Positions 25,946 through 46,281 of a stretch of DNA of 62,643 bases are shown here, one piece after another; position 1 is the first letter of the stretch; each line of letters begins with the position of its first letter. The notes beneath the pieces are model-generated. The model saw only the letters and a list, made by a program, of their open reading frames with translations, searched no databases and was not told the DNA's origin. Origin of the DNA: Clostridia bacterium (GTDB taxonomy: Bacteria; Bacillota; Clostridia; Oscillospirales; Acutalibacteraceae); assembly GCA_017622555.1 (NCBI GenBank), contig JAGAQV010000020.1, positions 1 to 62,643 of the forward strand. Reading direction: 5' to 3'. The translations under genes and the position numbers were made by a program.

Positions 25946-26608
25946 TTATTTCATTTCAACAATATTTTCGTTTGATTTTACAATACACTTTTCAGGATAA
26001 ACGCCCCTAAGGCAGTTCATTGGGTAAACCCTTGTACCCTTACCGATTATCGTGCCGGGGTTTAAAACACTGCCGCAGCCAATATCAGCACCATCGCCTA
26101 ACATTGCACCGACTTTGCGCAAATTTGTAACGTAATCGATATTGCTGTGAATTACAATATTTGAACCGTCGCCCTTGAAGTTAGAGCATATTGAGCCTGC
26201 ACCCATGTGAGCCTTGTCGCCCAAAACCGAATCACCAACGTAATTGTAATGCGGCACCTGAACGCCGTCACACAAAATACAATTTTTAAGCTCGGTTGAA
26301 TTACCAATAACACAATTTTGACCAATAAGGATATTTCCTCTTAAAAATGCGCCGGGTCGGATAACGGTGTTTGAACCTATAATTGTGGGTCCTTCAATAA
26401 CTGCAGTGGGATATATTTTAACATTTTTACCCACAAGCACATCTTTTTCTAAAAAATGATAACCCTCGATTCCAGCTTCAAGTAATTCTTTAATATATTT
26501 TTTAATGTCGGATAAGGCTTCCCACGGATATTCAAATTTTTCTAAAAACGGCTTTATATATTCGTTTTGTGTGTTAAACAGTTCTTTTGTTTTAACTAAT
26601 TTATTCAA
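25946..26608 (-). CDS. Left-handed beta-helix (hexapeptide repeat) nucleotidyltransferase-like protein
   Basis: About 220 aa. From residue 70 on it is a run of hexapeptide repeats (VGKNVKIYPTAVIEGPTIIG, IGQNCVIGNSTEL, GADIGCGSVLNPGTIIGKG) that form a left-handed beta-helix like the acetyltransferase half of GlmU, but no pyrophosphorylase P-loop is present. TTG at 26608 overlaps the stop of the mutase gene by 8 bp and has AAAGAGG upstream; the frame could also start seven codons earlier. The coupling to a GlmM-like enzyme suggests a linked step of amino-sugar or nucleotide-sugar synthesis. The substrate is unknown. Confidence 0.8.
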   Translation of the reverse strand: MNKLVKTKELFNTQNEYIKPFLEKFEYPWEALSDIKKYIKELLEAGIEGYHFLEKDVLVGKNVKIYPTAVIEGPTIIGSNTVIRPGAFLRGNILIGQNCVIGNSTELKNCILCDGVQVPHYNYVGDSVLGDKAHMGAGSICSNFKGDGSNIVIHSNIDYVTNLRKVGAMLGDGADIGCGSVLNPGTIIGKGTRVYPMNCLRGVYPEKCIVKSNENIVEMK

Positions 26609-28220
26609 CCAAAAAACCTCTTTCCTCAACCGTTTTTGCTACAATTTCAGCATAATCGTGACACTTTTCTTCGGTTTCGGCTTCAAGCATAATTCTTATA
26701 ACAGGCTCGGTACCACTTTGGCGAAGCAGTACCCTGCCATTGCCATCAATAAGCTTTTCAACCTGTTTAACGCTTTCAAGCACTGTACTGTCATTGACAA
26801 CTAAATTCTTATCTTTAACACGAAGATTTTTAACATACTGCGGGTAAAGGAAAACCGCATCACACAGCTTTGAAAGTGGCTGCTTGCTGTCGCAAATTTC
26901 TTCAAGGAGCATAATTGCAGTCAAAATACCGTCACCTGTGGTAGCATATTTCTTAATAATTATATGTCCCGACTGTTCACCACCGAGCGAATAATCCTTA
27001 TTTTGCATACATTCATACACAAAACGGTCACCAACGGCGGTTTGTTCACATTTGATTCCTGCCGCTTTAAGCGAATTAAAGAAGCCGCTGTTAGACATAA
27101 CGGTAGCTACCACCGTATCGTTATTAAGCATTCCTCTTGACTTTAAACGCTTACCGAGAATATACATGATTGCATCTCCGTCAACAAGGTTGCCGTTTTC
27201 ATCCACCGCAAGACAGCGGTCAGCGTCACCGTCAAAAGCAAAGCCAACGTCTAAATGGTTTTCTTTAACCAGCTTACACAGCCGTTCAATTTTGGTAGAG
27301 CCGCAATCCTCGTTAACGTTAAGACCGTTCGGCTCGTCACCAATTACCTGAAGCTGTGCACCAAGCGCACCGAAAACCGACGGCGCAATATTCCACGATG
27401 CACCGTTTGCGCAGTCAAGACCGATTTTTAAATTTTTATATGAGTTTGAAGCCAAAGAAATTAAATAACCTACATAACGGTTTCTGCCCGAAACGTAATC
27501 GACAATGTAACCTATTTTTTCTTTAGTCGCAAGGGGTAAATCGGTATCATTTATACCCAAAGCCGACATATCACCGTCTATATACGCTTCAATATAAGCG
27601 GTGGTAATGTCGTCAAGCTTTTCACCAAAACGGTTTATAACCTTAATGCCGTTATCATAAAACGGATTATGCGAAGCAGTTATCATTATGCCGCAATCGA
27701 ACCCGTCAATGCGCGTTACGTAAGAAACACTTGGGGTTGTGGTGACGTGAAGTATATATGCGTCCGCACCAGATGCCGTTATACCTGCTACTATTGAATA
27801 TTCCAGCATATAGCTTGAACGACGGGTGTCTTTACCGATAACAATTTTCGGGCGGTAACCCTTTTTTTGACAACCCGAAAGCGTCGAAGAATAATACCAG
27901 CCTAAAAAACGACCAACCTTATATGCCTGAATTGAAGTAAGGCCTATATTGGCCTCGCCACGAAAGCCATCCGTACCAAAATATTTATTATGTCCGCCGC
28001 TTTTCACGTCAGCTTTGATTTCAACAGTATCACGCAAAAGCTCGTCAGCGGAGATTTTAAAATAATCGCACATAGCAAGTATTTTATCAATTTGTGGAAC
28101 CGCCTGATCCATTTCCCATTTTGAAACCGACTGACGTGAAACCGAAATTATTTCGGCCAATTGCTCCTGTGAAACACCGTTGGCCGTTCTCATTTGTGTT
28201 ATTTTTTGTCCAATAGTCAT
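26601..28220 (-). CDS. XRE helix-turn-helix fused to phosphoglucosamine mutase (GlmM-like)
   Basis: 539 aa, about 80 longer than a normal GlmM. Residues 3-65 are a complete XRE/Cro domain (GQKITQMRTANGVSQEQLAE, SRQSVSKWEMDQAVPQIDK). From residue 80 the mutase begins (YFGTDGFRGEANIG). All mutase motifs are intact: phospho-Ser183 in TASHNP, metal loop DGDADR at 330-335, sugar loop GGEQSGH at 413-419 and phosphate loop RQSGTEP at 500-506. No start codon or ribosome site lies at the junction, so it is one polypeptide. ATG at 28220 follows GAGGT. It probably interconverts glucosamine 6- and 1-phosphate and may regulate its own gene or others. Confidence 0.88.
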   Translation of the reverse strand: MTIGQKITQMRTANGVSQEQLAEIISVSRQSVSKWEMDQAVPQIDKILAMCDYFKISADELLRDTVEIKADVKSGGHNKYFGTDGFRGEANIGLTSIQAYKVGRFLGWYYSSTLSGCQKKGYRPKIVIGKDTRRSSYMLEYSIVAGITASGADAYILHVTTTPSVSYVTRIDGFDCGIMITASHNPFYDNGIKVINRFGEKLDDITTAYIEAYIDGDMSALGINDTDLPLATKEKIGYIVDYVSGRNRYVGYLISLASNSYKNLKIGLDCANGASWNIAPSVFGALGAQLQVIGDEPNGLNVNEDCGSTKIERLCKLVKENHLDVGFAFDGDADRCLAVDENGNLVDGDAIMYILGKRLKSRGMLNNDTVVATVMSNSGFFNSLKAAGIKCEQTAVGDRFVYECMQNKDYSLGGEQSGHIIIKKYATTGDGILTAIMLLEEICDSKQPLSKLCDAVFLYPQYVKNLRVKDKNLVVNDSTVLESVKQVEKLIDGNGRVLLRQSGTEPVIRIMLEAETEEKCHDYAEIVAKTVEERGFLVE

Positions 28221-28320
28221 AATAAATTACCTCATATTTTTTATACGCCAAAATTACGCCTTATATTCATAATAGCAAAACATTCCAGCCGTGACCACCA
28301 ACCGTACATTGAACATTTTC

Positions 28321-28337
28321 TGCAACTTATGGTTGCA
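28321..28337. promoter_or_regulatory. Inverted repeat, candidate operator for the XRE-mutase fusion
   Basis: TGCAAC-5 bp-GTTGCA, a perfect 6-bp inverted repeat lying about 26-42 bp after the predicted transcription start of the fusion gene. XRE regulators bind short dyads of this kind near their own promoters. Assignment is by position only. Confidence 0.35.
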
Positions 28338-28369
28338 AAAAATCTAATTAATTTTATTTTTTCTCTTAA

Positions 28370-28398
28370 ATTATAATTAAAAAATAATTTTTTGTAAA
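28370..28398 (-). promoter_or_regulatory. Promoter of the XRE-mutase operon
   Basis: TTTACA (28393-28398), 17-bp spacer, TATAAT (28370-28375) on the minus strand. It gives a leader of about 140 nt. The upstream gene is closed off by the terminator at 28433-28469, so this is a separate unit. Confidence 0.7.
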
Positions 28399-46082: not shown

Positions 46083-46250
46083 TTAACCACCAAAAGCGAG
46101 TATTCCGACTTATTATGCGGGTGTTTCGGGTTACCCCGGTCCTTCGCCTTCCCACTTAAAAGCAGTGACATAATGAAAGACCTTAACACAAATTACGGCG
46201 ACGAGTTCGCAGGGGAATTTCACCCCTATTCCAGTTTAAGAAAAGCAAGG
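46083..46250 (-). promoter_or_regulatory. Cobalamin riboswitch aptamer
   Basis: The minus strand shows the B12-box cores in order: GGAATAGGGGTGAAATTCC with GCGAA after it, TCACTG, AAGTGGGAAGG, a hairpin GACCGGGGTAACCCG, and the 3' core AGTCGGAATACTCGC. These are the conserved adenosyl/methyl-cobalamin aptamer elements. The linker to the ribosome-site hairpin (46004-46082) contains TTGTATT, which could compete with its stem. Exact ends are approximate. Confidence 0.9.
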
Positions 46251-46281
46251 CTTTTCACTTTTGGGTTTGCTTTGCCATTAA

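Follow-up and report, generated by a model that had tools for sequence, protein, structure and literature searches.

The window, i.e., the whole stretch of 62,643 nucleotides analyzed here (contig JAGAQV010000020.1 of a Clostridia bacterium of the Acutalibacteraceae), carries on its minus strand a gene in which a predicted DNA-binding domain of the XRE family is joined to a predicted phosphoglucosamine mutase (GlmM), with a dyad-bearing leader before it and an acetyltransferase gene behind it. The features of this locus are the following:

28322..28336, minus strand: putative operator O1, GCAACCATAAGTTGC, a perfect dyad of the form GCAAC-N5-GTTGC and the sole exact GCAACYNNNRGTTGC found in this genome
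28298..28312, minus strand: putative operator O2, TCAATGTACGGTTGG, imperfect, its centre 24 bp from that of O1
28292..28297, minus strand: putative -35 box, TGGTCA, a weak match (relatives have the consensus TTGATA), adjoining O2 on its downstream side
28269..28274, minus strand: putative -10 box, TATTAT, at a spacing of 17 bp from the -35 box, with a preceding TG that makes it an extended -10
26601..28220, minus strand: XRE-GlmM fusion gene, ATG start, 539 residues, uninterrupted open reading frame
28026..28220, minus strand: XRE (Cro/C1-type) helix-turn-helix (HTH) domain, residues 1-65, Pfam HTH_3
28113..28142, minus strand: recognition-helix region VSRQSVSKWE, residues 27-36
26616..27986, minus strand: phosphoglucosamine mutase part, residues 79-535, TIGR01455
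27666..27683, minus strand: catalytic serine loop TASHNP, residues 180-185
25946..26608, minus strand: gene of a left-handed beta-helix (hexapeptide) acetyltransferase resembling the C-terminal half of GlmU, with a putative start inside the fusion gene and an overlap with its stop codon

The preliminary description of this DNA had read the gene as a complete HTH fused, without an internal start, to a mutase with four intact motifs, and each of these elements was recovered. In the window protein, Pfam HTH_3 matches residues 9-61 (5.5e-12; 46 bits against a cut-off of 23), which gives the complete HTH with retained recognition helix that is expected of an XRE regulator, and all four PGM_PMM domains were found. 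The GlmM identity of the mutase part is borne out by the TIGR01455 equivalog, which matches residues 81-532 with 496.6 bits (cut-off 447.55) over positions 1-441 of its 442, the closest solved sequence being that of the GlmM 3pdk (E 2.7e-125). The serine, magnesium, sugar and phosphate loops, which we take to define the GlmM active site, are all present in strict form. Among 86 full-length fused proteins, the strict patterns TASHNP, DGDADR, GEQSGH and R.SGTEP occur in 67, 64, 80 and 81, respectively, and permissive patterns recover the serine loop in 85 (all except L248), the magnesium loop in 86, the sugar loop in 86 (once as GEQSGS) and the phosphate loop in 84 (all except L227 and L248); the A-S-H-N of the serine loop is invariant in 35 alignment rows. 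From this profile and these motifs, the fusion protein is predicted to be a working phosphoglucosamine mutase that would convert glucosamine-6-phosphate to glucosamine-1-phosphate. Furthermore, it is the only GlmM-like match (E up to 1e-40) among three PGM_PMM proteins of its own genome, in which the search for a stand-alone glmM that had been recommended at the outset returned none at this threshold.

The reading frame offers few alternatives to a fused product: within codons 41-100, ATG, GTG or TTG occurs only at codons 50 (ATG), 62 (TTG) and 72 (GTG), none of which is preceded by a Shine-Dalgarno sequence as judged by eye, and a methionine lies between residue 61 and the start of the mutase in only 8 of 88 fused proteins. 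In 11 non-overlapping pairs of fused genes, with synonymous sites near saturation in several of them, dN/dS was estimated at 0.08 for the HTH versus 0.06 for the mutase, and pN at 0.07 for the HTH, 0.16 for the linker and 0.05 for the mutase; judged by these estimates, the HTH is under purifying selection.

The leaders of fused genes have in common the dyad GCAACYNNNRGTTGC, represented in the window by O1 at 28322-28336, i.e., within the range for which a leader dyad and a promoter had been described; the putative -35 and -10 boxes downstream of O1 and O2 provide the latter. At a tolerance of one mismatch over its 12 specified positions, and within 300 nt of the gene, 80 of 88 fused leaders carry the dyad (it is exact in 60), as against none of the 60 leaders of unfused relatives and 0.1% of mononucleotide-shuffled fused leaders, the count omitting L022 (a leader of 74 nt) as well as L036, L059, L090, L103, L112 and L180 (match beginning within or far into the query). 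Sequence comparison thus places before the fused genes the kind of operator-like site at a target promoter that is expected of an XRE regulator. The corresponding Fisher value of 4e-33 treats related rows as independent and is consequently overstated; the counts nevertheless indicate that the dyad before fused glmM is not due to chance. The looser pattern GCAAC-N5-GTTGC, at one mismatch, was encountered in a single unfused leader (L086). Of the 70 genomes of the genus, 38 contain exact GCAACYNNNRGTTGC sites, versus 4 for the pattern read backwards, and the 42 exact sites comprise 23 before fused glmM, five before other XRE genes, 11 inside open reading frames, and one each before glmS, in a terminator-like hairpin at nagA and between other genes.

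Seven of the 85 rows with an intact HTH have leaders with more than one mismatch (L025, L043, L052, L071, L081, L178 and L235), and L025, L071 and L178 among them retain a dyad with two mismatches. The fused gene of L043 sits after the hexapeptide gene, and no site at one mismatch or fewer was found in L078, an 11.6-kb locus with the same gene. The leader of L081, a distant fused gene, contains another palindrome, TTTTGTTGC-GCAACAAAA, whose half-sites stand in the opposite order.

In the main clade, 63 of the 70 leaders scanned have a good second half-site, and in 54 of these 63 an imperfect second site, O2, lies 22-24 bp past O1, centre to centre; it is immediately followed by TTGATA and, 17 bp further on, by an extended -10 box, TATWAT. 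Between GTTGS of O2 and the -10 box the distance is 28 for 32 of the 62 leaders and 27-29 for 36, the others being scattered, in part owing to a scan that takes the best hexamer anywhere. A different layout is seen in a subclade of ~60% identity (L172, L173, L176 and L179), where the right arm of a single site holds a TTGACA -35 box located 17 bp from TATAAT. The possibility that the dyad forms an RNA hairpin was dismissed: it reads as a DNA site, being located upstream of the promoter and having arms that keep their sequence without covariation. At gathering thresholds, the only Rfam matches in the window were an SRP RNA and, at 46098-46256 on the minus strand, a cobalamin riboswitch.

A mutase tree of 144 of the 149 rows, i.e., those with a mutase part of at least 400 residues (quick LG+G4 with SH-aLRT, no bootstrap, and with long-branch warnings), requires at least four changes of fusion state, which are read as one gain of the HTH in the ancestor of a 98-row clade, followed by three losses among its members. 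The HTH was lost in a clade of nine rows, in L017, and in L073 together with L074 (12 rows in all), and no operator was found in the 11 of these rows with a readable leader. L076 retains its N-terminus, yet its recognition helix has decayed in place, uniquely among 57 aligned fused proteins, and its leader holds no operator; among all rows lacking an intact HTH, none was found to have one. The preliminary description had named two findings as adverse to its reading, i.e., HTH-less orthologs with a frameshift at this position and relatives without DNA-binding residues; the unfused orthologs appear to be real losses or outgroups, and the single case of decay among the 57 is the one in which the dyad is missing also. 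Four independent pairs lie on well-supported branches (sign-test p 0.125), and across 200 pairings the operator goes with the HTH in 3.5 on average and in the opposite direction in none. Since only four pairs are independent, the argument depends on the pattern in its entirety: the dyad tracks the HTH rather than the mutase and is gone where the HTH was lost, which strongly supports self-regulation. The suggestion that the protein might control its own transcription, ventured with a ‘perhaps’ at the outset, has accordingly been strengthened by a dyad that is conserved over many species, pairs with the HTH and is absent upon HTH loss.

As a separate observation, unfused glmM genes of the clade lacking HTH and operator are preceded, in the last 60 nt, by a hairpin of the type CCTTTTTTCGCATA-CTAT-TATGCGAAAGAGGG, which pairs the probable ribosome-binding site (L018-L021, L023, L046, L047 and L189). 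Seven of these leaders were folded, with z values of -4.2 to -7.3, L046 (weaker by eye) and L022 being outside this set, and a replacement control at the RNA level is possible.

The operator is not confined to glmM. Among 29 glmS leaders (from 30 loci, one of which lacks a start; two leaders are shorter than 200 nt), six have a site at 0-2 mismatches (G029, G083, G014, G084, G002 and G060), while the two-mismatch matches of G021 and G064 may be due to chance and the other 21 leaders have at least four mismatches. Four of the six genomes with a glmS site possess a fused glmM, and in G029 and G014 no GlmM was found at 1e-40; the fused genomes G062, G067, G072, G085 (leader of 191 nt) and G089 have no site before glmS. 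In L024, L026, L174 and L247, glmS lies directly 3' of fused glmM. Exact sites also precede other XRE genes (L152, L164, L184, L186 and contig C3 of G023), and a site with one mismatch stands before a further XRE gene (L141) of the window's own genome. This distribution suggests an operator characteristic of this class of HTH, and cross-talk between fused GlmM and other XRE proteins at a shared operator is possible. The XRE protein of L164 has an ADP-ribosylglycohydrolase C-terminal part according to Pfam, as has that of L152 by its sequence, and these are possibly another self-regulating enzyme, whereas the C-terminal stretches of the L184 and L186 proteins are hydrophobic and membrane-like. 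A wide regulon in the window's own genome is as yet unsupported: two of the three exact GCAAC-N5-GTTGC sites lie inside long open reading frames, and the site before L141 is the only one of 12 one-mismatch sites with loci to fall outside a long frame. The nagB locus (L222) contains no site with fewer than three mismatches, and nagA of G066 (L153) was rejected as a regulon member, its site being part of the terminator-like hairpin.

The acetyltransferase gene overlapping the fusion gene probably starts with TTG at 26608. It had been called GlmU-like, which holds for the acetyltransferase half of GlmU and for that half only. A hexapeptide gene is next downstream in 64 of 88 fused loci versus 10 of 61 unfused loci; among seven fused loci from other orders, six have it on the downstream side, the exception being L249, where it lies upstream, and in L255 glmS comes after it. 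A full GlmU was not found in the window's own genome, where the best match is the hexapeptide protein of the window itself (9 of 14 control genomes pass the cut-off), nor was GlmS (TIGR01135; control 14 of 14), while NagB is present with 263.6 bits (cut-off 236.9). At 1e-80, no GlmS was found in 35 of 70 genomes of the genus, the own genome included, some of these assemblies being incomplete. Glucosamine-6-phosphate may be supplied by a reversed NagB or by scavenging, in which case its level would be worth sensing; likewise, the lack of a detected GlmS in this and 34 other genomes suggests that amino-sugar supply may be limiting.

Taken together, these observations make it likely that the enzyme regulates its own promoter through O1 and O2. 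The N-terminal XRE domain would bind O1, and with it O2, with dimeric binding presumably provided by the GlmM part, and the bound protein would control, most likely repress, the glmM-acetyltransferase operon; in one subclade it would control glmS too. Comparison supports well the core of this proposal, i.e., that the HTH pairs with its operator class and that this operator lies at the promoter. Repression is the somewhat more probable sign, because the operator of L172, L173, L176 and L179 contains the -35 box, such that bound protein should block the promoter. Whether DNA binding is also modulated by substrate, product or the phosphorylation state of the mutase appears evenly balanced to us; if so, the operon would answer to the supply of amino-sugar phosphates. 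With sequence signs of intact catalysis and of gene control occurring together, it is concluded that the protein is a candidate trigger enzyme, as had been put forward.

The same promoter architecture could be read in the opposite sense, with the fusion protein activating its own promoter in a positive feedback on an essential enzyme. O2 would be centred near -43 and O1 near -67, placing the HTH against sigma-A in a geometry similar to that of lambda CI at PRM; in the main clade the -35 box begins immediately past O2, whose distance to the -10 box has a single clear mode, and the main-clade -35 boxes match the consensus only in part, as does TGGTCA in the window. However, the extended -10 box, TG-N-TATWAT, yields a good core promoter unaided, and binding to the single site of the ~60%-identity subclade should repress, and activation is considered the less likely sign. 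A further reading retains self-regulation and removes only the sensing, the protein being a plain autoregulator that keeps the enzyme level constant. Enzyme concentration alone would account for all sequence data, and XRE proteins with membrane helices or an ADP-ribosylglycohydrolase part share the operator; nothing bears against this directly, yet the fused enzyme-regulators PutA, BirA and, as reported, BzdR respond to ligands, and we regard this reading as possible while leaning against it.

Two other readings would deprive the HTH of any role. It might be a silent passenger, with the dyad belonging to an unrelated regulator, given that other XRE proteins of these genomes have similar operators and could act at glmM; this is highly improbable in view of the low dN/dS and conserved recognition helix of the HTH, of the coincidence of HTH loss and operator absence in three losses and in L076, and of G011 and G075, which keep another XRE gene with the operator yet have no site at one mismatch or fewer at their unfused glmM. 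Finally, the named fused records are metagenome assemblies or uncultured isolates, which might suggest an artefact, i.e., a frame error joining two genes or a start placed too far upstream; the frame is nonetheless open without stops across many independent assemblies and offers no plausible internal start, and since the fusion is conserved, an artefact is refuted to a degree that leaves it a negligible probability.

Self-regulation by the enzyme, as preferred here, has partial precedents. BirA, PutA and NadR combine an enzyme and a transcription regulator in one chain and control their own pathway, and PutA and BirA respond to ligands; they differ from fused GlmM in being other enzymes, mostly with other DNA-binding folds. 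To our knowledge, no peptidoglycan-precursor enzyme is a trigger enzyme with a fused DNA-binding domain, and a search of open-licence papers found no description of an XRE-GlmM fusion. Known GlmM proteins (TIGR01455; PDB 3pdk, 7ojr and 6gyz) resemble the window protein throughout the mutase part and its catalytic loops, but the solved chains and the fetched unfused relatives have no counterpart of the HTH, their sequences starting with the mutase part or a short way ahead of it. The XRE-ADP-ribosylglycohydrolase and XRE-membrane proteins share the HTH class and operator, while their C-terminal parts are unrelated to GlmM. GlmM commits amino sugar to peptidoglycan, and in other bacteria control of its pathway involves the glmS ribozyme, small RNAs and protein partners; in the present case regulation appears to lie with the enzyme itself, the operator can be named and the losses of the HTH amount to an experiment of nature, so that the driving of transcription by the state of an active site becomes directly testable. 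A comparable architecture is that of BzdR, in which, as reported, an XRE domain is joined to a shikimate-kinase-like domain that has no detectable kinase activity and binds benzoyl-CoA, and which represses a promoter (PMC3602430). Both proteins have an XRE HTH, a linker and an enzyme-derived C-terminal part, but fused GlmM, with its motifs kept and as the sole GlmM found in its genome, does not have the appearance of a dead-enzyme sensor of the BzdR type.

Across 70 genomes of the genus, the fusion is present in 34 (once cut at a contig edge and once split over two contigs), an unfused ortholog of 69-76% identity in 10, an unfused relative of 56-57% in six and a GlmM of 40-48% in 13 (two partial), while seven have no GlmM match at 1e-40. 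At this threshold an unfused GlmM was not found in 33 of the 34 fused genomes; G026 has both forms on one contig (C61, 6214-7818 and 28242-29609), ~20 kb apart. Among the matches listed, weak ones excluded, the fusion occurs in at least 31 of 394 genomes of the order, in seven families including its own, and in at least 15 of 391 genomes of the class, 14 of which lie outside the order, in six families. Of the fused loci in other orders, seven in number, six have the dyad in exact form and one has it with one mismatch; two of these leaders, L253 and L254, are the same as those of L053 and L070, which are already within the 88.

The identity of RF1 to that of the window is 49-65% in other families and orders versus 75-99% in 13 genomes of the genus (26 of 28 genomes with a match; G769, at 38%, is too distant to count), whereas fused GlmM is 71-77% identical across orders and 58-92% within the genus. 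These values point to gene transfer between orders with the operator included, and fused glmM thus seems to have moved together with its operator. The simplest origin is that HTH, promoter and operator were captured as one block, the donor probably being an XRE gene of that HTH class with autoregulation. A possible source of the fusion was sought in an XRE gene close to the 5' side of unfused glmM; one was seen at only one of 61 loci (L027, 730 nt upstream), 39 of which had more than 2 kb upstream, which does not establish such an origin. Tentatively, and at somewhat less than an even chance, the system may be pictured as a horizontally spreading cassette in which an essential cell-wall enzyme carries its own transcription factor and operator, senses amino-sugar phosphates with its active site and has recruited glmS into a small regulon, one lineage that lost the HTH having seemingly exchanged this control for a hairpin in the RNA that covers the ribosome site of glmM. 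Among the best 80 of 92 relatives, the titles of fused loci refer to metagenome assemblies or uncultured isolates, many of them from the gut of goat, sheep, deer or yak, and fused GlmM is, by these sequences, present in many uncultured gut bacteria.
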